In this document: positions 69 to 18,329 of the stretch, piece by piece
How positions within the stretch are numbered: position 1 is the first letter of the stretch
Layout of the letters: every line of letters starts with the position of its first letter
Source of the DNA: a virus
Virus record (IMG/VR): IMGVR_UViG_3300030451_002390
Coordinates: 1-20,179 of that record
Direction: 5' to 3' (one strand)
Length of the DNA: 20,179 bases
Notes under the pieces: model-generated
Database searches by the model: none
Told to the model about the DNA's origin: nothing
The model's input: only the letters and a program-made list of their open reading frames with translations
Program-made: the position numbers and the translations under genes

Positions 69-1796
69 CTAATTATTAGGTGTGGGGAAAGCTGGATCTG
101 GAGTATTGAAGTGGAGTGTTGCAGTTTCTCCCTTGCAGTTAGCAAAAGTTGATGCGCCATCCTCACTAGTTTCCTGACAAACATCCCATTTTCTATAATT
201 ATAAGTGACAGTAGTGGAATTAAAGTTACCAGTATCTTCGTCTAAAACTTCGTAAACTACATCAAAGTCATTATAGTCAACATGAGATGAAAAGTCCCAA
301 TATCTTCCACCGCTACAGATAATAAATACTGCTGCCCCTTTATTTCTTGATCCGTATTCATCATCATCATAATCGTCATCAGTAGCGGTTTCTACCATCA
401 AAGCGCAAGTTGGCCCAAAGGTTGCTACCTCATTTTGGTGAGCAGCGGACTTATATGTAAAGATATTATCCGTTGTAGTGCCATGTGGTCTTGCAATAGT
501 AGTAGCAAGACTTAAACTGGTGGTATAAGCAGCTAAATTTGCTCCTCCAGTTCCATAGAAATCATTGTGAGAGTCAGAAAATGTAGGTATACTACAAGTT
601 TGTCCATAACAAACGCCGTCACTACTATTCTGACCACCAGCTAAACTAATCACCGTATCACCATTGCTATCATCAACTTCAATCCACCACGCAGTGCCAG
701 CAAGATCAGCTGTGACACAAAATTTAAGGCATTCTGGACATTTATTTATTGTTGTAGTGTAAGGTGTGTTTTGAGTGCTAATTTTTCCAGTATCTAAAAG
801 CGACACTTCTGGAGATTCACACACATCAAATACTTCTAATTGATCGGGAATGGTGTATGTTTCAAATCTAATAGTAACAGGTGGCCCAGCACTTTGAATA
901 TCTGGACACAAAGTTGTTGTGGTAGTAGTGGTAGTAGTGGTGGTTGTGGTAGTTGTCGTGGTTGTAGTGGTAGTTGTTGTCGTTGTGGTAGTTGTGGTAG
1001 TTGTCGTGCTTGTAGTGGTAGTTGTTGTCGTTGGCGGGGCCGTTGTACTAGTAGTAGTAGTAGTGCAAGGAATAAAGTCGTCACCAATCGGTAAACAGCT
1101 TACATAGCTAGGATTATATTCAGCGCAAAATTTATTACATATGGGAGTAATGGAGATTTCACTAGGAACAAAGAAACATTCATTAATGGTAGATCTATCG
1201 CATAAACTTTCTACCTCAACCCGTAAAAATTTATTATTTAATTTTACTTTTCTAAGTATGTCTGAAGATGAAAATACTATCTCAGCATTGTTTAATACTA
1301 GTTTATCACCAAAAGTGTTTATATGTCTAACAGCTACTACATCTCCATTTTCAGTTTTTACTAAAACTTTAATAGCGCCGTCAATAGTTATTTTATTAGT
1401 TTTAAAATGATCTGCAAATTTAATTTTTAAAGAATTAAGAAAAACATCGCTACCGCTAGTAAGTGTAGCTGACTTGGTTTTAAACTCTTGTTCACTGTCA
1501 ACTAAAACATCTACAGTATGCTGTAAATCTAACTCTATAGAATTATTAATAACTAAAGAGCTACCAATAGATGAGTCAGTTGCACTTCCTCTAGGAAAGA
1601 ACATAGATCCGCAAAGACATTTTAGGATCTCAGTGTCTTCTTCAGTTACTATTGTAGAAACTGGACAGGGATTACCACTTTCTGGTATGTATATGTATGG
1701 TGTTTCAGTGGTCGTTGTGCTAGTCGTAGTAGCGGGTACATACCTTTTAAAAGGACTTACAGGATCGTCACACCTAGTTCTTCTTCCTCGCGCCAT
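69..1796 (-). CDS. Cys-rich virion-like protein with a poly-threonine linker (575 aa)
   Basis: No catalytic family is recognised. Residues about 21-31 form a first Thr-rich patch. Residues about 35-245 look like a compact domain with scattered cysteines. A Cys-flanked Thr/Ser/Pro stretch follows, with an unbroken run of 32 threonines (codons at 912-1007). The C-terminal half of about 280 residues is also Cys-containing and has an acidic DDDYDDDEYG segment. All four Thr codons are mixed in the run, so it is kept at protein level and is not a simple triplet expansion. The start is supported by GAGGA 8 nt upstream of the ATG. The gene begins 19 nt after the fibre-like gene, so the two are probably co-transcribed. 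Likely a fibre-tip, adhesin or other exposed virion protein with a flexible, possibly glycosylated spacer; this is inferred from context and composition. Confidence 0.7.
   Translation of the reverse strand: MARGRRTRCDDPVSPFKRYVPATTTSTTTTETPYIYIPESGNPCPVSTIVTEEDTEILKCLCGSMFFPRGSATDSSIGSSLVINNSIELDLQHTVDVLVDSEQEFKTKSATLTSGSDVFLNSLKIKFADHFKTNKITIDGAIKVLVKTENGDVVAVRHINTFGDKLVLNNAEIVFSSSDILRKVKLNNKFLRVEVESLCDRSTINECFFVPSEISITPICNKFCAEYNPSYVSCLPIGDDFIPCTTTTTSTTAPPTTTTTTTSTTTTTTTTTTTTTTTTTTTTTTTTTTTTTTTTLCPDIQSAGPPVTIRFETYTIPDQLEVFDVCESPEVSLLDTGKISTQNTPYTTTINKCPECLKFCVTADLAGTAWWIEVDDSNGDTVISLAGGQNSSDGVCYGQTCSIPTFSDSHNDFYGTGGANLAAYTTSLSLATTIARPHGTTTDNIFTYKSAAHQNEVATFGPTCALMVETATDDDYDDDEYGSRNKGAAVFIICSGGRYWDFSSHVDYNDFDVVYEVLDEDTGNFNSTTVTYNYRKWDVCQETSEDGASTFANCKGETATLHFNTPDPAFPTPNN
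912..1064 (-). repeat. Low-complexity poly-Thr coding tract
   Basis: Read on the minus strand the tract encodes T5-S-TT-A-PP-T7-S-T32, with a Cys on the upstream side and Leu-Cys on the downstream side. The 32-codon run at 912-1007 uses ACT 10, ACA 10, ACC 9 and ACG 3 times by my count. This mixture argues for protein-level selection. Long Thr/Ser/Pro tracts usually act as extended linkers and are candidates for O-glycosylation. Confidence 0.9.
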
Positions 1797-10925: not shown

Positions 10926-12905
10926 TTAATACACGTTTTTCATGCCATCTTCAAACCAAGATGGCGCAGTATACATCTTTCCATCTTTTTTGCTGGAATG
11001 TCCACCAGTTGCAAAACCTCCGTAAAATGAAGGCTGTGCCACAGTCGGCATCCTATCTAAAGTTCTAGCAGCCATGTTAGCCATCAATAGTGCTGAATAT
11101 CTATCTTTACGTAATTTCTTTTTCTTTCCAGTTCCTATAACCACCTCTGGTGTATCCCACCTATCCCTACCGTTACTAGTTTGAGCAATTTGTATCATAG
11201 ACAATTCGTTCTTTAGTTCTTCAATATCTGTAACGCATTCCTCTAGTGTATCATATATTCTATTCTGCATGTTATCTTCATGTTCAGATATTGCTATGCT
11301 AACAGGATCAAAAAATGGAAATAATAATATCTTGTCCTCAAAGTCTTTTCTCATACCATGATTCGCCTCCGCTAACCAATCATACTTAGCAAACTGGCAC
11401 ATTTCTAAAATATGTAATCCTCTTTCGCCGTCTGTGTCTTTTTCTTTTTTATCGTCAATGGTGGGCCAAATTAAATGCTCTCCGTCTTGTATTTTATCCT
11501 TATCGTGCAAGGCTTCCATTACAGCAACTCCACCGCCCTGAGCATCTAGAGCTATATGTATACATGGAAATAATTTCATTAAATCTCTAATTTTCCTAGC
11601 GCAGTATGAGTAAAAGTCAGTTTCACTAGCATATCCTTTTTTAACTTTATCTTTATGTTCTGTTCTAGTTGTTGTCCAACAATGTACTATCTTTCTGTGA
11701 TCTGGATTTACTTCTAATACTACAATACTAAAATTGTCTACCTCTGAAGCTGGGTCAACTCCAAATATATATTTACTATCTTTATTACCCTTGAGCTGTG
11801 CTTGAAATATAATATCATTGCCTTCTCTATCTTTAATTGTTTCTTTATCATCAACAACGCATGACTCTATAAGTGATCGTTTAAAGAATCCTTGAGAGTC
11901 CGTAGTAAAACAAGCTCCGTATTCCATTTGATAGATCCCAGTATGAACAGTAGCTTTAGATCTAGCAACTTGATCTGAATCCATAAAACCTTTTGGAAGT
12001 AATTCGTATGGCATACGTATAATAGAATACTGAGTCCAATCAAAATCTTCTGGAGGATCTTCTCCAAAAATTTCTTTTAGCTTGTGAGGCTGACCGCCGC
12101 TCTTAATAATAGATTTCCATTTTTTCCAGTATGTAGCAAAATGATTAAAATCATAATAAGCAGTACCAGAAAGAACAATTTGATTATCTTTACTTTGTTG
12201 TTTTTGTTCTTCCTCTAGTGCTAGTCCTAGTTCTTGCGCTTTCTTTTCAGCTGCTAATCTTTTGACGTTCGCCACTGGGTCAGAACTAACAGCAGCAAAA
12301 CCAGCTACAACATTTTCAAAAATTTCTCTGGGTATAGATGCAAACTCATCAGCAATGATATCATTTGCGCGTTGACCTCTAATTTTCTGACCATCGCCTA
12401 GAGGTAGGCAAGTCACAGTGCTATCGTTAAGTCTCAGGGTGCATCTGTCAGTGTCTCTACGTGGACCGCTATCGCTGTCGCATATATCTCTAAGCATAGG
12501 AGAATTTCTCCAAATGGTCTCCATATACTCAAACAGAACCTTTGACTGCCTAAACGCAGCACCAACTATAACAATCTTACGTTTGGGTAATATTAAAGCT
12601 CTAAGTATAGAATATAAGGACAACATAAAAGATTTACCAAAGCCTCGACTAGCAACAAGCATAGGAAACTTTCTTTGCCATACTTCGTTTAAGAAAAGAG
12701 ACTGTGATGGCAATAACTGTACATTTAGTATATGATGAGTTATAAAAGATAGATACTCTGGCCTGATCATTAGCCATGCTAATTTAAGGTTAAAATCATC
12801 TTGATCTGGATTAATCATAGACATTGGATTAAAAATCTGAGTGTCTATAGAGTCTAAGCCTAGCCAAGCTTCATCAATTTGTTTTAGCTTTTCAGTTTTT
12901 GCCAC
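10926..12905 (-). CDS. terL: Terminase large subunit (659 aa)
   Basis: Two-domain DNA-packaging motor. The ATPase domain carries Walker A ASRGFGKS at about 85-92 and Walker B DIIADE with Asp186 and catalytic Glu187. The RNase H-like nuclease domain has the expected acidic residues: Asp384 in FGVDPAS, Asp454 in IALDAQGGG and Asp601 in RKDRYS. Length is normal to slightly long for the family. I place the start at the GTG at 12905, preceded by CGAGGTAATAAATAC. A longer frame to a TTG at 12965 adds a basic stretch and has no comparable ribosome binding site. With this start it overlaps the ClpP-like gene by 22 nt, suggesting translational coupling. It acts with the candidate small terminase (17069-17854), the portal, and probably the neighbouring HNH protein during packaging. 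Confidence 0.95.
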   Translation of the reverse strand: MAKTEKLKQIDEAWLGLDSIDTQIFNPMSMINPDQDDFNLKLAWLMIRPEYLSFITHHILNVQLLPSQSLFLNEVWQRKFPMLVASRGFGKSFMLSLYSILRALILPKRKIVIVGAAFRQSKVLFEYMETIWRNSPMLRDICDSDSGPRRDTDRCTLRLNDSTVTCLPLGDGQKIRGQRANDIIADEFASIPREIFENVVAGFAAVSSDPVANVKRLAAEKKAQELGLALEEEQKQQSKDNQIVLSGTAYYDFNHFATYWKKWKSIIKSGGQPHKLKEIFGEDPPEDFDWTQYSIIRMPYELLPKGFMDSDQVARSKATVHTGIYQMEYGACFTTDSQGFFKRSLIESCVVDDKETIKDREGNDIIFQAQLKGNKDSKYIFGVDPASEVDNFSIVVLEVNPDHRKIVHCWTTTRTEHKDKVKKGYASETDFYSYCARKIRDLMKLFPCIHIALDAQGGGVAVMEALHDKDKIQDGEHLIWPTIDDKKEKDTDGERGLHILEMCQFAKYDWLAEANHGMRKDFEDKILLFPFFDPVSIAISEHEDNMQNRIYDTLEECVTDIEELKNELSMIQIAQTSNGRDRWDTPEVVIGTGKKKKLRKDRYSALLMANMAARTLDRMPTVAQPSFYGGFATGGHSSKKDGKMYTAPSWFEDGMKNVY

Positions 12906-13531
12906 GTATTTATTACCTCGTCTGCGAAACCGTAGTAAACCGCTTCGTCTGCTGTGATATACCAATCGCCAGATTTTAACTTACGGTACAAGAAATTCTT
13001 TACTTTGTCAGTTGTTGGTTTAGCTCCATACTTATCTTTAAAAAATTGTCCAGAAACACAGGAGTTTGCGTATATTTCCATCATAACTTCGCATATATGT
13101 TTTTCATACTTAGCCCAGTTTTGAACGCTAAGGTATTCTCCATTTGCCGCAGTGGAGCCATAGTGCGACATAAAATATGTATTAGGAGTAATATATCTAG
13201 TGTCACCTGCCTGTAGTATTATACTACTCATTGATTCTGCTTGACCATACGCAACGATTGTTACATGACATCTACACATAGATATCGCGTCGTATATTAC
13301 CATACCATCAGACCACTCTCCTCCTACGCTCTGCATATGTATAATAATTGGATTAGATGATTTGAGTTCTAGTGCGCGTAAGTTCTTTAAAAATGTATTT
13401 GACATTTTATACTCTACGCCCGGATTCTCTTCATCATTAGATCCGTAGTGATTATGTAGAAATATTTCTCTACTATCTAAATTTGAATTATAGTTATGCA
13501 AATCGTAAAGTATATCTTTATCATGTATCAT
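12884..13531 (-). CDS. ClpP-like serine protease (215 aa)
   Basis: Clp protease proteolytic subunit fold. From the chosen start the catalytic triad is visible: Ser100 in YGQAESMSS, His123 in YFMSHYG and Asp189 in SGDWYITADEA. The oxyanion strand appears as QSVGGEW (canonical SPGG). Length is normal for ClpP. The start at 13531 is chosen because GGGAGGAAATCTTAAT precedes it; an in-frame ATG at 13564 would put this ribosome binding site inside the gene. The stop of the ERCC4-type nuclease is one base upstream (TAATATG). ClpP-like proteins occur in phages either as head-maturation proteases or as accessory enzymes that work with host Clp ATPases. Because a dedicated prohead protease is also present, the second role is plausible here but unproven. 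Confidence 0.88.
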   Translation of the reverse strand: MIHDKDILYDLHNYNSNLDSREIFLHNHYGSNDEENPGVEYKMSNTFLKNLRALELKSSNPIIIHMQSVGGEWSDGMVIYDAISMCRCHVTIVAYGQAESMSSIILQAGDTRYITPNTYFMSHYGSTAANGEYLSVQNWAKYEKHICEVMMEIYANSCVSGQFFKDKYGAKPTTDKVKNFLYRKLKSGDWYITADEAVYYGFADEVINTWQKLKS

Positions 13532-13532
13532 A

Positions 13533-14036
13533 TTAAGATTTCCTCCCGATTGTATACATTTCATTTATCCTCTTGAAAATGCTGCTAACAGCAAGAAATG
13601 CAGTGTGCTTGTTTCCACAAAACAATACATGTACATTATTGTACAATTCAAATTCAACTAAACACTTCAGCATATATCTTCCAGTGATTTTGACTGAAGC
13701 TTTATTCTTAATTGGTATTCTTGTTTCTTTAGGAAATTTTAGCAAATCCTCCAAAGAAAATTCTAAAACTAAATACTTATGTGGAAAACTTTCCATTCTA
13801 TTTATTTCGTTCATGAAGGCGTGTTTTTTAGAGCCAAGATTTATTGCCAACTCCTCCACGCAGCCCTTTCTTTCTATACATATCTTGTCCTCTAGTCCCT
13901 CTATGGAATAATCTCCAGTATCAAGTTTATGTTCTATCATTCCAGCACATGTGTTAAACTTACTAAAGTAATATCCGTCTTGCTCACGGGTATCTTTTAT
14001 GACAGTAAAATCAGGCGCTTGTTTGTACTTAGCCAT
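13533..14036 (-). CDS. ERCC4/XPF-type nuclease (167 aa)
   Basis: A single ERCC4 nuclease domain without helicase or helix-hairpin-helix parts. The motif series is clear: VIKDTREQDGYYF (Asp15, Glu18), HKLDTGDYSIEG (Asp42) and CIERKGCVEEL (Glu55-Arg56-Lys57). The family signature is GD-Xn-ERK-X3-D; here the last position is Glu61 rather than Asp, a conservative change. Such nucleases cut branched or flap DNA and could resolve replication or recombination intermediates before packaging. It overlaps the upstream HNH gene by 8 nt and is followed at 1 nt by the ClpP-like gene. The ATG lacks a strong ribosome binding site (AGAGAAATAATAA), so translation is probably coupled. Confidence 0.85.
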   Translation of the reverse strand: MAKYKQAPDFTVIKDTREQDGYYFSKFNTCAGMIEHKLDTGDYSIEGLEDKICIERKGCVEELAINLGSKKHAFMNEINRMESFPHKYLVLEFSLEDLLKFPKETRIPIKNKASVKITGRYMLKCLVEFELYNNVHVLFCGNKHTAFLAVSSIFKRINEMYTIGRKS

Positions 14037-14286
14037 TTATTATTTCTCTAAAAAGTAATTGGTAGTGGGATTCTTTACCAGTTATAGATTGATGACATTT
14101 TTTACACAACGTAATTCCATTTGATGGTTCATATCTTAATGCAGAAGCATTGGACCAAGTTTGTATGTGATGTACATTTAAATTTTTTTTCGATTTACAG
14201 TTAGGCATACGGCATTTGAATTTATCTCTTTTTAAAACTTCTGTTCTAAATTTTTTATAATCTGGGTCGTTGTAATTTCTTCTCAT
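14029..14286 (-). CDS. Small HNH endonuclease (85 aa)
   Basis: An 85-residue HNH domain with almost nothing else. A Zn-binding set Cys25, Cys30, Cys61, Cys64 frames the catalytic core: His39-His40 in NVHHIQ, Asn56 in SNGITLC and His65 in KKCHQSI. Small HNH proteins encoded next to terminase and portal genes are a known component of packaging machines in cos phages such as HK97 (gp74), where they assist large-terminase cleavage. The position here, three genes from terL in the same operon, supports that role. A free-standing homing endonuclease is the alternative, but the gene overlaps both neighbours (4 nt upstream as ATGA, 8 nt downstream), which argues for an integrated operon member. Confidence 0.88.
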   Translation of the reverse strand: MRRNYNDPDYKKFRTEVLKRDKFKCRMPNCKSKKNLNVHHIQTWSNASALRYEPSNGITLCKKCHQSITGKESHYQLLFREIING

Positions 14287-14534
14287 AGCTGCTCTATTTT
14301 ATCTATTCTTATTAACTTTCTTATCTTTCTGCATAAAACTCTAGTCTCTATTGTAGGTTGTTGTCGCATAAGTTTTTTCATCAGTCTTAACGTAATTTCG
14401 TGACACGCATCATCTGGACTCGAAGCGTCTATAAAACACAATGCAAACGGTATGGAAAACTCACCCGTTAGAATATATTTTTTTAAATCATTTTGTAAGT
14501 CAGATAAATCTATTGATATTCTATAATTTGGCAT
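14283..14534 (-). CDS. Unknown small protein (83 aa)
   Basis: Not recognised. The sequence MPNYRISIDLSDLQNDLKKY opens with a short strand and a helix; the last third is strongly basic with several Lys/Arg-rich helical turns (RLMKKLMRQQ, CRKIRKLIRIDK). No membrane segment or metal site is present. It overlaps the Gmd gene by 14 nt upstream and the HNH gene by 4 nt (ATGA) downstream, and has no good Shine-Dalgarno, so it is probably translated by coupling. The basic tail could suit nucleic-acid or terminase contact; this is only a guess from charge and neighbours. Confidence 0.7.
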   Translation of the reverse strand: MPNYRISIDLSDLQNDLKKYILTGEFSIPFALCFIDASSPDDACHEITLRLMKKLMRQQPTIETRVLCRKIRKLIRIDKIEQL

Positions 14535-15567
14535 CCATCATAAGTTTTATTAACCCCTCCAAATTGTACTTTGGTGTCCATCCTAGTTCTTCTTTAGCTT
14601 TGGTGCAGTCTCCTCTGAGATAGTCTACTTCTGAAGGTCTATAAAATTTTGGATCAACTACAACATGATTTTTCCAATCTTCTATACCCGCATAGTCAAA
14701 TGCGATGTCTAAGAATTCTGATATTGTATGGGTTTCTCCAGTACAAACTACATAATCGTCAGCTTGATCTTGTTGCAGCATTAACCACATTGCTTCTACG
14801 TAATCTCCAGCGTAGCCCCAATCTCTATAAGCATTTAAATTACCAAGCCTTAGCTTTGGAAAGCGATTTCCAACATCTCTATCACAGTATATATAGTCAT
14901 CATTAAATGATGTTGAGCCTACACATACTTTATCTTTCCATGTTTTATAATTTTTAATCCAACGAACTATTTTTTGCGTAACAAAATTCTCTCCCCTTCG
15001 CGGTCCTTCGTGATTAAAAAGAATACCAGAACTAGCATGTATGTCGTAAGCGTCCCTAAAAAGACGAACGCTGTAATGAGCAGCGCACTTAGAGATTGCA
15101 TAAGGCGAGTTAGGCATAAACTTAGTTTGTTCATTTTGATATTTCCTTCCTTGTTTATCAATGTCGTAAGAACTGCCAAACATTTCGCTAGAAGAGGCTT
15201 GGTAAAATCTCGTCCTGAACATACCAAGGTCTACTAGAGATTGTAATAGATTTATGCATCCTTTACCTGTAATATCCCAAGTCAAAGATGGTTGATTAAA
15301 TGAGCTTGCTACATGCGACTGAGCCGCTAGATTATAGACTTCATCTACATCCTCGTTATTTTTGAATATATTTATAACACTACTTACATCTGTAATGTCT
15401 CCCTCGATTAAATTGAATTTGTCAAAGTCAAGTAGATGCTTAATTCTCTCCGTTGTGTCTACACTGCACCTCCTAGTTACTCCTATAACCTCATAATTCT
15501 TCTCAAGCAGTAAATCTGCGAGATGGCTTCCATCCTGTCCCGTAATGCCTGTGACTATTGCTTTCAT
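14521..15567 (-). CDS. gmd: GDP-mannose 4,6-dehydratase (348 aa)
   Basis: Short-chain dehydrogenase/reductase that converts GDP-D-mannose to GDP-4-keto-6-deoxy-D-mannose, the precursor of GDP-L-fucose and related 6-deoxy sugars. The NADP-binding motif GITGQDG is at 7-13, the 'YNLAAQSHV' strand at 78-86, the catalytic Ser127-Glu128 in SSSEMFG and the Tyr156-x3-Lys160 pair in SPYAISK. The substrate-side motifs NHEGPRRGENFVT, LGNLNAYRDWGYAGDYVEAM and the C-terminal GDCTKAKEELGW are all close to canonical. Length is normal, but a segment around residues 215-232 (SFNDDYIYCDRDVG) looks like an insertion before LGNL. The gene overlaps the GT6 gene by 4 nt (ATGA) and has AAAGGA as ribosome binding site. 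No GDP-fucose synthase is seen in the window, so the final sugar is uncertain. Confidence 0.95.
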   Translation of the reverse strand: MKAIVTGITGQDGSHLADLLLEKNYEVIGVTRRCSVDTTERIKHLLDFDKFNLIEGDITDVSSVINIFKNNEDVDEVYNLAAQSHVASSFNQPSLTWDITGKGCINLLQSLVDLGMFRTRFYQASSSEMFGSSYDIDKQGRKYQNEQTKFMPNSPYAISKCAAHYSVRLFRDAYDIHASSGILFNHEGPRRGENFVTQKIVRWIKNYKTWKDKVCVGSTSFNDDYIYCDRDVGNRFPKLRLGNLNAYRDWGYAGDYVEAMWLMLQQDQADDYVVCTGETHTISEFLDIAFDYAGIEDWKNHVVVDPKFYRPSEVDYLRGDCTKAKEELGWTPKYNLEGLIKLMMDAKL

Positions 15568-16328
15568 GTTATCCTTTCGACCTTTCCGTATTTAATATCT
15601 ATTTGATTATCTTTGTTCGCTAATAAATCTTTCTTTATTGTTTCTATACTTAAATGAGGATTCCTAGTCTCGCCAACTCCAGACTTATCGCTTACGTTAA
15701 AAACAAACTCCTCTATTTCTACAGTAAAAGGAGGATTATAGTGAAAATAAGCGTTAATATAACTTTCGTCGTTAACTCCCGGTTCATATGGTATTTCCTT
15801 ATCTATAAGTTGCCACTCTCTCAGCGTCCTACAAAAATTTAAAACTCTATCTTTTTCTCCACCAAAGAATGCTCCATAGTAATACATTTGTTTTAAAGGT
15901 GTGTCGTATGGTACATATGATTTAGATCTTGGGTTTCTGTCAAATGCTTTCTTGTCACGCATCCAAGATCTGTTTCCATAATGTTCGCCCCCTACTAACT
16001 CGCCAATGAACCAATCTGTAGTAAATGGCCTGCTGACACCAGTATCTGCATCGAAGTAATAAATGTAGTCAAGATCCTCGTCTTCCATAGTAAGTATATT
16101 TTTAAATTTTGAATTAGTTCCATCTGCCCACCTTTTGTGATGTTCTGGTATATATTTAACATTTAGTCGCGGATCGTTTGGTAAATAGGGCGCTGGGTCC
16201 GTATCTGAGAAAAAATAAAACGTTACCTTATCATGACCTGTATTAAAGAATGTAAATTGCTTTAAGAACTTTACTCCTAAAGCAAAATATGCATTCGTTG
16301 CTATAACTACTATTCCTATTTTTCTCAT
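15564..16328 (-). CDS. Family GT6-like glycosyltransferase (254 aa)
   Basis: A GT-A fold transferase resembling CAZy family GT6, which includes the vertebrate ABO and alpha-1,3-galactosyltransferases and some bacterial and phage members. The N-terminal KIGIVVIATNAYF strand, the metal-binding DXD motif (Asp93-Ala-Asp95 in YYFDADTG), the YYYGAFFGGEKDRVL segment at about 149-163 and NDESYINAYF at 186-195 match the family's landmarks. As I recall, most bacterial GT6 enzymes have NXN instead of DXD, while a cyanophage member keeps DXD; this protein is of the DXD kind. No membrane anchor is present, so it would be cytoplasmic. It overlaps the upstream miniprotein gene and the downstream gmd by 4 nt each, so the set is co-translated. 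The sugar donor and acceptor are unknown. Confidence 0.8.
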   Translation of the reverse strand: MRKIGIVVIATNAYFALGVKFLKQFTFFNTGHDKVTFYFFSDTDPAPYLPNDPRLNVKYIPEHHKRWADGTNSKFKNILTMEDEDLDYIYYFDADTGVSRPFTTDWFIGELVGGEHYGNRSWMRDKKAFDRNPRSKSYVPYDTPLKQMYYYGAFFGGEKDRVLNFCRTLREWQLIDKEIPYEPGVNDESYINAYFHYNPPFTVEIEEFVFNVSDKSGVGETRNPHLSIETIKKDLLANKDNQIDIKYGKVERIT

Positions 16329-16426
16329 TCTTTATCTCTAGCTATATATATAAAAAGAAACACTATGGGTAGCTCTACCATTAGAGCGACAGACCAGCAC
16401 ATCAATATATCAAGCAATGTTGGCAT
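16325..16426 (-). CDS. 33-aa single-pass membrane miniprotein
   Basis: A short frame reads MPTLLDILMCWSVALMVELP then IVFLFIYIARDKE. About 25 residues are strongly hydrophobic, with an acidic Asp6 and Glu18 and a charged ARDKE end, so a single transmembrane helix is likely. CAGGAGGGCATAA precedes the ATG, a perfect AGGAGG with 6-nt spacing and the best ribosome binding site in this part of the operon. Its TGA overlaps the GT6 start by 4 nt (ATGA), and its start overlaps the upstream glycosyltransferase by 17 nt. This tight packing supports a real gene. It could anchor or regulate the glycosyltransferases, act in membrane stress or holin-like processes, or mainly serve translational coupling. 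Confidence 0.72.
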   Translation of the reverse strand: MPTLLDILMCWSVALMVELPIVFLFIYIARDKE

Positions 16427-17066
16427 TTATGCCCTCCTGTTTACATATATTATAGAAGTCTTCTGTAAATTTGCCCTTACGACAAGCCTCTAAATACCAA
16501 GGTTTTTCTTGTGAGGCAAAGAAAATTCTGTGTAGACAATTATTATTTAAACGCTGAGATCCGTCAACTTCAAATTGCCACGGATCTTCTTCATTGTCTT
16601 TATCGAAGCAATCATACAAAAAGTCAGTATTCCAAAAGGATGCCTGTAAGGATATAGTATATAAACTTTGTTGGTGGAATTTATATATGTTGCCATACAC
16701 TGGTAGCTTTGCGTAAAAAGTGCTGTCATCATGTATTCCAAAGCGACCCGCTTTATTTGATATAAAGAAATCATAATAAGTTTGCATTTCTTCTAAAAGC
16801 AAATACCTTCTAAGAAAATAATCATCTTGTAACCACAGTATGTTCTTAGTCTTAATTTTGTCTAGGGCTTTCTTTACGCCCACACTAAAAGTGCCGTTCT
16901 TTACTTTTATGGTTTCAAACTTATGCAGGTTTGCGTCGAACTCTTGGGTAATAATATATTTCTTAACGTCTATAGCGTTATCCCAATACTTATGGAATAT
17001 ATAATTAAAGTGATTCCATAAATAATTATACTTATCACAAGATCCAACTAATATGGCAAATTCCAT
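16410..17066 (-). CDS. Putative glycosyltransferase (218 aa)
   Basis: Begins MEFAILVGSCDKYNYLW, a GT-A-like first strand. The segment KTKNILWLQDDYFLRR has an acidic pair where DXD motifs usually lie. The C-terminal half contains 'SLQASFWNTDFL' and 'EDPWQFEVDGSQRL', a pattern I associate with a group of glycosyltransferase-like proteins in viruses and polysaccharide loci (W-K-x-F-L ... N-P-W-x-F-E). I set the start at 17066: AAAGGAATAAAT precedes it and the stop of the upstream gene is only 3 nt away. A frame open to 17240 is an overlap with that gene in another frame. With gmd and the GT6 protein it makes a sugar-modification cassette. Substrate is unknown, and the family is less certain than for the GT6 protein. 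Confidence 0.65.
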   Translation of the reverse strand: MEFAILVGSCDKYNYLWNHFNYIFHKYWDNAIDVKKYIITQEFDANLHKFETIKVKNGTFSVGVKKALDKIKTKNILWLQDDYFLRRYLLLEEMQTYYDFFISNKAGRFGIHDDSTFYAKLPVYGNIYKFHQQSLYTISLQASFWNTDFLYDCFDKDNEEDPWQFEVDGSQRLNNNCLHRIFFASQEKPWYLEACRKGKFTEDFYNICKQEGINANIA

Positions 17067-17068
17067 AT

Positions 17069-17854
17069 TTATTCCTTTGCAGTATCTGGTGTAAGAAAAG
17101 GTTGATCTACAGTACCGTCCTCGTACTTGTGGTATGCCGCTAATCTTTGTCTTTCTTTCTCCATAGCTAGTCTCATCTTTTCCATTTCTATGCCATACTT
17201 TTTCATTAGCTCTGGATCTTGCATCATAGAGGCGACCCACGAAGTAAAGCTGAGTTTACTGTCTTCTAGTCGTTTAATTCGCTGCTCTCTCGTACCCTTC
17301 ATTTCTTTTAGCATAGAACTCTTTTTAGCCTGCAACTCGCGGTAATCTTTATTTAAACTTTCCTGCGAAGCCCTAAGCGAAGCCACCTGTCTTTCTAAGT
17401 TAATAATATAGTCTATGTCTTGTTGATCTTTGTCTCTAGCACGTTCGTCTTTAATCATAATATCATAAGTGTTAATCTGTTCTATGTTTTCTTTATTGCC
17501 TGTTAAACAGCGGTTCATAAGTAATTCAAGTTTTATGGTATCTACTATCTGCATTTCCTCTGTAGGTAATACATCGTTGTTAAACTGGGCGACCATGCGT
17601 GACCAACTATATTTAAATAATTCTAATTCATCGTCTGTAAATTGTTGTTTCAGTTCTTTGTAGAAAGGGCGATGTTCTAGTGAGTAGGCTGCTGCCTCTT
17701 CTCTGGATGTACCTACGTTAAATTTACGTTTAATAAAGTTTACAACAGACTCAGTATCACGATCTAGCTGAGTAGCAATATCTTCAGGGGTCATGCTATT
17801 AATAAGACGACCAATAGTTCTTTCCTCGTCTTTGGAGAATCTACCCTTTCTCAT
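17069..17854 (-). CDS. Candidate terminase small subunit (261 aa)
   Basis: The N-terminal 45 residues (MRKGRFSKDEERTIGRLI onward) form a SANT/homeodomain-like helix-turn-helix with 'SMTPEDIATQLDRDTESVVN' as the recognition unit. The middle (about 130-205) is a long charged helical region that can form coiled coil, and the C-terminus is Pro/Thr-containing. HTH plus oligomerising coiled coil is the plan of small terminase subunits, which bind the packaging site and load the large subunit. Another DNA-binding regulator is possible. It overlaps the sigma-like gene by 14 nt, with GGGAGCTGATAC before the ATG. It is separated from terL by about 4 kb containing the sugar cassette and nucleases, which is unusual. 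Confidence 0.55.
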   Translation of the reverse strand: MRKGRFSKDEERTIGRLINSMTPEDIATQLDRDTESVVNFIKRKFNVGTSREEAAAYSLEHRPFYKELKQQFTDDELELFKYSWSRMVAQFNNDVLPTEEMQIVDTIKLELLMNRCLTGNKENIEQINTYDIMIKDERARDKDQQDIDYIINLERQVASLRASQESLNKDYRELQAKKSSMLKEMKGTREQRIKRLEDSKLSFTSWVASMMQDPELMKKYGIEMEKMRLAMEKERQRLAAYHKYEDGTVDQPFLTPDTAKE

Positions 17855-18329
17855 GTATCAGCTCCCTTATAACTTCGATAACTTGCTCTCTACGTTTTTT
17901 AGAAACATATACGTCGTTTAACATTTTTAAGTAATCAGCTCTATACTCAGCTGGCAAGTATTTATCTATAATATTTTGTATTTGTACAAAGTCTACTTTT
18001 TCATCTAAGCAAAGTTCTTCTTGTGGTATAGAAGATTCATAGGAAAGTTGTTGGGGGCAAAGTACATTACGCTTCTTTTCATCTTGACCTATATAATGGT
18101 TATCACGTATAAAATTCTTTAAACGATTAGATAGATTAACTGCTAGGAAGTTCTCTAAGGGGCGTTTTTCATCATATCTATTTAGGGCATCCATACATAT
18201 CATAAAAGCTTCCTGTTTTATATCATCAAGATCATAACCGTGGAATGTGTATTTGGGCGATATTCTATTTACAACAAGATCTATTTTTTCTAAGACTTCC
18301 TCTTTAGACATGTTCTTTGGTATTTTCAT
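17841..18329 (-). CDS. Sigma-70 family protein, region-2 type (162 aa)
   Basis: Residues about 16-80 match sigma-70 region 2: 'GYDLDDIKQEAFMICMDALN', then a RYDEKRPLENFL stretch and a basic NRLKNFIRDNHYIG helix, corresponding to the core-binding and -10-recognition helices. A last helical part (about 125-162, rich in Lys/Arg) could be a degenerate region 4, but no clear helix-turn-helix is visible. Small phage sigma factors such as T4 gp55 direct late transcription from promoters that have only a -10-type element. Several TATAAT/TATAAC sites without a -35 precede minus-strand units here, which fits. It overlaps the 184-aa gene by 4 nt (ATGA) with AGAGGTATTT as ribosome binding site. Function in late transcription is inferred. 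Confidence 0.8.
   Translation of the reverse strand: MKIPKNMSKEEVLEKIDLVVNRISPKYTFHGYDLDDIKQEAFMICMDALNRYDEKRPLENFLAVNLSNRLKNFIRDNHYIGQDEKKRNVLCPQQLSYESSIPQEELCLDEKVDFVQIQNIIDKYLPAEYRADYLKMLNDVYVSKKRREQVIEVIRELIHEKG

Follow-up and report, generated by a model that had tools for sequence, protein, structure and literature searches.

Conserved Gmd and an adjoining slot of exchangeable glycan-enzyme genes in the packaging operon of uncultured aquatic phages

The window analysed here is a stretch of virus DNA of 20,179 bases (IMG/VR record IMGVR_UViG_3300030451_002390). Its minus strand carries a block of sugar-modification genes, ending in one for a GDP-mannose 4,6-dehydratase (Gmd), between the gene of a 261-residue protein (p261) and an HNH-ERCC4-ClpP-terL group. 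Comparison with about 125 distinct relatives, which fall into two lineages termed A (including the window) and B, indicates that Gmd is not cargo but belongs, ancestral and intact, to the backbone of both of these deep lineages, and that the interval between p261 and Gmd, hereafter the slot, is a hotspot in which sets of 0 to 4 glycan enzymes are swapped as whole genes. We put at about one half the probability that these genes form a glycan-diversification module, anchored on the core Gmd, whose exchangeable enzymes decorate virion proteins and provide a serotype-like switch. The phages concerned are a large group, uncultured and water-borne.

Results

The block described in the initial annotation, in which a glycosyltransferase, a membrane miniprotein, a GT6 glycosyltransferase and Gmd overlap one another between the 261-residue protein and the HNH-ERCC4-ClpP-terL group, is real, as judged from the coordinates and from the Pfam and fold identities of its members; its genes overlap or lie 2 bp apart, and the block is translationally coupled. 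It consists of the following open reading frames (ORFs):

17069-17854, minus strand: p261, predicted helix-turn-helix (HTH)-like helices and long coiled coil, bordering the slot on the left; mean column identity of 84% over 21 relatives
16410-17066, minus strand: GTa, predicted GT-A-fold glycosyltransferase, exchangeable slot gene; ATG at 17066, 2 bp past the p261 stop
16325-16426, minus strand: 33-aa single-pass membrane miniprotein; 17 bp overlap with GTa, about 25 relatives
15564-16328, minus strand: GT6, exchangeable slot gene; 4 bp overlap with the 33-aa ORF, PF03414 at 1.2e-18
14521-15567, minus strand: Gmd, GDP-mannose 4,6-dehydratase, right border of the slot and core gene; 4 bp overlap with GT6, PF16363 at 1.5e-112

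The identity of Gmd is supported by its match to PF16363 (GDP_Man_Dehyd; 376.7 bits against a cut-off of 27) and by its best PDB matches, which are themselves Gmds (1n7g at 1.3e-92). The NCBIfam gmd equivalog scored 360.7 bits (cut-off 415), the match being interrupted by an insertion that follows residue 207 or thereabouts, and the second-best NCBIfam family reached only 105.8 bits. The glycines G7, G10 and G13 (GxxGxxG), E128 ((S/T)-E), and Y156 and K160 (YxxxK) are intact in 123/123 distinct relatives. Residues 208-236, approximately, form a variable insertion, and two relatives (L008 and L023) are without it.

Lineage A was assembled from TerL (large terminase) scans of IMG/VR, its best 80 relatives having TerL proteins 73-93% identical; as the best 80 loci were kept per scan, the sample is biased towards close kin. 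The TerL of a contig from a Flavobacteriales metagenome-assembled genome (MAG), 53% identical to that of the window, led to lineage B. Of the distinct loci that carry p261, HNH and ERCC4, 73/73 in lineage A and 48/52 in lineage B have Gmd between p261 and HNH. The four distinct loci devoid of Gmd all belong to lineage B, and in these p261 abuts or overlaps HNH. On the TerL tree they are nested within B and require two changes, only one of which is forced by strongly supported branches. The distances between Gmd proteins follow those of the backbone about as closely as the backbone genes follow one another: the Mantel correlation of Gmd with p261 or ERCC4 was 0.57-0.59 in A, 0.58-0.64 in B and 0.91-0.92 in both lineages together, as compared with 0.61, 0.65 and 0.96, respectively, for p261 with ERCC4. 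In a tree that included 16 bacterial Gmds (from one phylum) and four other viral ones, the Gmds of A and B formed one group (support 88), apart from the bacterial and cyanophage proteins, each lineage being a single clade. The simplest history would thus be a single gain before the A/B split followed by one or two losses in B, and the Gmd-less junctions look like such losses.

The slot, measured from the p261 stop to the Gmd start, ranges from 5 bp to 2.7 kb in 75 distinct lineage-A loci. It is shorter than 120 bp in 15 of them, seven of these being roughly as long as the 33-aa ORF, while in lineage B 45 of 48 slots are empty and the other three hold one gene; Gmd is retained beside all these empty slots. 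The 113 slot ORFs fall into 31 families, with about 40 arrangements in the 75 lineage-A loci, the 31 being clusters and not functions, because in clustering family 0 a single fused ORF links methyltransferases to GT2-like proteins. Pfam names among them comprise GT2, GT6, GT11, GT17, GT25, GT29, GT32-like, GT92, sulfotransferase, several methyltransferases and cytidylyltransferase, and several families are nameless; most of the recognisable genes are glycosyltransferases, sulfotransferases or methyltransferases. The lineage-A tree (p261 plus ERCC4) requires 10 changes between the empty and filled states, and 42 changes for 37 arrangements.

The borders of these exchanges are sharp. Loci L149 and L038 share the same p261 and ERCC4 protein sequences and flanking DNA that is 91-92% identical, but their slot genes differ; DNA homology between the two breaks off at the p261 stop and restarts 6 bp into Gmd. 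L133 and L128 are about 98% identical and diverge only in the initial part of the slot, and the alignment of the empty L154 with the filled L152 breaks at about the same borders as that of L149 with L038. No recombinase or mobility gene was recognised among the slot families and no convincing border repeats were seen in the window, which makes recombination in the flanking core genes the likely route.

The initial annotation had taken the whole cassette for an insertion that became coupled to its surroundings. This holds for the slot genes, as relatives without the glycosyltransferase genes and with clean borders were found; it does not hold for Gmd, which is missing only from the four lineage-B loci. 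Because empty versions exist, the possibility that every relative shares the filled arrangement falls away. The base composition, which had been suggested as a check, is on average in agreement, the slots having a lower G+C content than the backbone (mean 0.321 versus 0.355) in 58/63 loci, yet the difference in the window's own slot is small (0.340 versus 0.353), and we did not retain composition alone as evidence of insertion.

Both glycosyltransferases of the window can be assigned to a fold or family. GTa had no Pfam, PHROG, NCBIfam or PDB sequence match, but its model, built with five relatives, shows a GT-A fold (predicted local distance difference test score, pLDDT, 72) that Foldseek matched to RmlT, TarP, K4CP and GalNAc-T2 at about 1e-5 to 1e-4 and VIA to B4GALNT1 at Z 14.6. 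The family, present in 9 distinct loci, has an invariant QDDYF motif, and on the strength of the model GTa is predicted to be a GT-A-fold glycosyltransferase. GT6 matched PF03414 with 67.4 bits (cut-off 25) and the human ABO transferase in the PDB at 3.7e-14; it shares D93-A-D95 (DxD) and D187-E188 in the nucleophile region with that enzyme and with the GT6 of cyanophage P-SSM2. These features place it in glycosyltransferase family 6 (ABO/alpha-1,3-Gal transferase family) and, if it acts like its relatives, it would add alpha-Gal or alpha-GalNAc. The 33-aa ORF between them, with its motif IL-x-CW ... E/D-L and a median ratio of nonsynonymous to synonymous substitution of 0.25, is by this conservation a real gene; it usually lies right behind p261 and also occurs alone in slots without any glycosyltransferase.

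p261, the left border, is conserved in both lineages. Its AlphaFold2 model (pLDDT 83) has N-terminal HTH-like helices followed by a long coiled coil, a predicted fold that suits a small terminase. Homology to TerS was found neither by PDB profile search nor by Foldseek against PDB and BFVD, the p261 profile did not match the gene preceding terL in Bacillus phage Staley or Microcystis phage MaeS, VIA-align returned generic coiled coils only, and the weak PHROG matches were to D5-like (HTH) regulators. We therefore regard p261 as a candidate small terminase or late regulator. As the small-terminase call is undecided, the view of the initial annotation that terS and terL were split by an insertion is not established.

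The remaining features of the window that bear on the block are:

14283-14534, minus strand: p83, small conserved lineage-A ORF, no family; 14 bp overlap with Gmd
14029-14286, minus strand: HNH endonuclease; PF01844, PHROG 119
13533-14036, minus strand: ERCC4-type nuclease; PF02732, PHROG 3490
12884-13564, minus strand: ClpP-like head maturation protease; PF00574, PHROG 94
10926-12965, minus strand: TerL, large terminase, listed with a TTG start; PF03237 (Terminase_6N), PHROG 2
69-1796, minus strand: Thr/Ser-tract protein (40-residue tract), possible O-glycan acceptor

From a small ORF ahead of a sigma-70-like gene through to TerL, neighbouring genes all overlap or lie no more than 2 bp apart. 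The sigma-70 region 2-like ORF (17841-18329, minus strand), near the head of this operon and conserved in both lineages, may encode a late sigma factor. The HNH and ERCC4-type nuclease pair (13533-14286, minus strand) lies upstream of TerL in both lineages and may represent packaging nucleases. A counterpart of p83 was not found in the lineage-B locus L185. Promoter matches were close to the shuffled expectation, and the Rfam search was without match.

The contigs of the relatives reach 230 kb. Neither p261 nor GTa matched any of 50,697 phage records, among which there was no close isolate, and TerL is only about 25% identical to those of isolate phages. Two phage contigs, L184 (VFHP01000009.1) and L185 (NZWA01000009.1), are binned into a SAR202 and a Flavobacteriales MAG, respectively, and besides the phage copy the contigs of these MAGs gave only weak matches of short-chain dehydrogenases/reductases (SDRs) to Gmd. 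A host assignment from these two bacterial matches was rejected, as they disagree and the contigs may be misbinned.

Discussion

We propose that the slot genes and Gmd would be made late, at the same time as the genes for packaging and capsid. Gmd would produce GDP-4-keto-6-deoxymannose, which a host enzyme, or Gmd itself, would convert to GDP-fucose, GDP-rhamnose or a different deoxysugar. The slot enzymes, GTa and GT6 in the window, would build or cap a short, probably O-linked glycan on proteins of the virion, for example the Thr-rich ones of the structural region. Replacement of the slot genes through recombination in the conserved flanks would then change the glycan in the manner of a serotype switch, and probably lets the virus alter its sugar coat as bacteria vary their surface. 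One slot (L151) has a GT11 fucosyltransferase immediately before Gmd, which would tie the slot to Gmd through GDP-fucose. A stronger form of this proposal, in which a deoxysugar glycan of the virion (or of an infection stage) is obligate, with Gmd as a core member of the packaging operon and the slot as a phage serotype locus whose continual exchange of whole enzymes keeps changing that glycan, is in our judgement tentative, with the odds somewhat against it.

Several points weigh against the proposal. A GDP-fucose synthase or other second SDR was absent from all 13 genomes tested, so that completing the Gmd product must fall to the host or to Gmd itself, as the Gmd of PBCV-1 is able to do, and the final sugar would hinge on that step. 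In a set of four records, one has further SDRs besides Gmd. GT11 and GT10 fucosyltransferases are rare and a DegT aminotransferase occurs in only 6/23 records, which, with the missing second SDR, means that the final deoxysugar cannot be named. The retention of Gmd beside empty slots argues that it is useful beyond the slot genes. Late expression is deduced from the overlapping operon and the gene order with the packaging genes, and the acceptor on the virion is likewise inferred. Thr/Ser tracts are found in the window and in 5/6 large genomes (G001, G002, G017, G022 and G010), but these include the empty-slot phages G022 and G010; the tracts do not follow slot state and were discarded as a slot marker. 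As a separate observation, G005 (L244), a Gmd-less phage of lineage B, has another sugar cluster at about 71-85 kb, which gave four matches to SDRs and several to DegT.

Virion glycosylation is nevertheless preferred, on indirect evidence, to the remodelling of a host surface glycan, whether for superinfection exclusion or for preventing the loss of progeny onto debris, which we consider possible but unlikely. The GT25, GT32-like, sulfotransferase and O-methyltransferase families found in the slots also act on surface polysaccharides, the rapid turnover of the slot fits a host-surface arms race, and the 33-aa membrane peptide could work at the membrane. The glycosyltransferases of pelagimyophage islands have, moreover, been given this reading (PMC7029224). 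Against it, the position in the packaging operon suggests expression that would be late for exclusion, and no GtrA-like flippase or multi-pass enzyme was recognised among the 31 slot families, whose proteins are small and look soluble. An integrase was found in 0/12 large records, so that lysogenic conversion is not expected; together, these absences speak against conversion of the gtr type, which relies on GtrA and the multi-pass GtrB. A use of the slot enzymes in glycosylating hypermodified DNA bases to evade restriction would suit a block that adjoins packaging and nuclease genes, and phage glycosyltransferases are known for base glycosylation (work cited in PMC12619734). However, the thymidylate synthase/dCMP hydroxymethylase family was present in 0/12 records of 95-230 kb, which speaks against the usual route. 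The slots also hold sulfotransferase, GT29, GT11 and GT6 families, which act on glycoproteins or glycolipids, and we consider the DNA-base explanation highly improbable.

Two further explanations concern Gmd rather than the acceptor. That the whole block, Gmd included, is a recent single insertion splitting terS from terL is suggested by the lineage-B junctions at which p261 abuts or overlaps HNH, but it is contradicted for Gmd by its presence in 73/73 A and 48/52 B loci, by the nesting of the Gmd-less cases within B with two changes on the TerL tree, and by the agreement of its tree and distances with the backbone; we give this explanation very little credit. A mixed use, in which slot cargo of varied or no benefit is tolerated at a recombination hotspot and Gmd has a separate core task, would account for the retention of Gmd beside empty slots (15/75 A loci under 120 bp and 45/48 B loci). 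It seems improbable, though less so than a single insertion, as the recognisable slot genes are nearly all glycan enzymes, unlike random cargo, and their reading frames are intact and coupled.

The arrangement works like the glycan islands of cyanophages and pelagimyophages, but it is small, sits within a packaging operon and has a core Gmd as its anchor. Cyanophages P-SSM2, ACG-2014f and DSL-LC03 also keep sugar genes in overlapping blocks, with shared families, namely Gmd (ACG-2014f and DSL-LC03), GT6 (P-SSM2 and ACG-2014f), GT11 and GT25; identity to these counterparts is about 44-46% for Gmd and 29% for GT6. In the cyanophages, however, GDP-fucose synthase or a different SDR comes after Gmd, whereas here Gmd is usually the sole SDR, and their block is located apart from the packaging genes, close to hli/ferredoxin genes in the case of P-SSM2 and ACG-2014f, unlike here. 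The host recognition cluster of pelagimyophages and cyanomyophages is likewise a hypervariable, glycosyltransferase-rich island in the structural region; that island has an average size of 34-45 kb, is located between VrlC and gp14 and includes tail fibres (PMC7029224), while the present slot spans 0-2.7 kb, is bordered by p261 and Gmd, is replaced in whole genes and contains no recognised tail fibre gene.

A conserved viral Gmd is also known from chlorovirus PBCV-1, where it feeds a virus-made capsid glycan and, alone, also makes GDP-D-rhamnose (PMC4691112). That virus infects eukaryotes, has GMER as a second enzyme and a demonstrated glycan target, whereas the target here is a proposed one. 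Mycobacteriophage capsid and tail tube subunits carry glycans (Freeman et al. 2023, as cited in PMC12619734), as is proposed here for virion proteins. Moraphages, large aquatic phages with predicted Bacteroidota hosts, count four glycosyltransferases among their core orthogroups (PMC12619734) and resemble the present group as large aquatic phages with glycosyltransferases.

In the phages compared here, a sugar-nucleotide enzyme behaves as a core gene of both deep lineages, while the genes beside it are exchanged between near-identical genomes with breaks exactly at gene borders. Glycosyltransferases of phages are widespread in aquatic viromes, and the targets that they decorate are seldom known. 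The locus thus offers a testable case for virus-made, rapidly switching phage glycans, comparable to bacterial surface serotype loci and to the capsid glycans of chloroviruses, and it cautions that a sugar gene in a phage is not always a recent auxiliary metabolic insertion.

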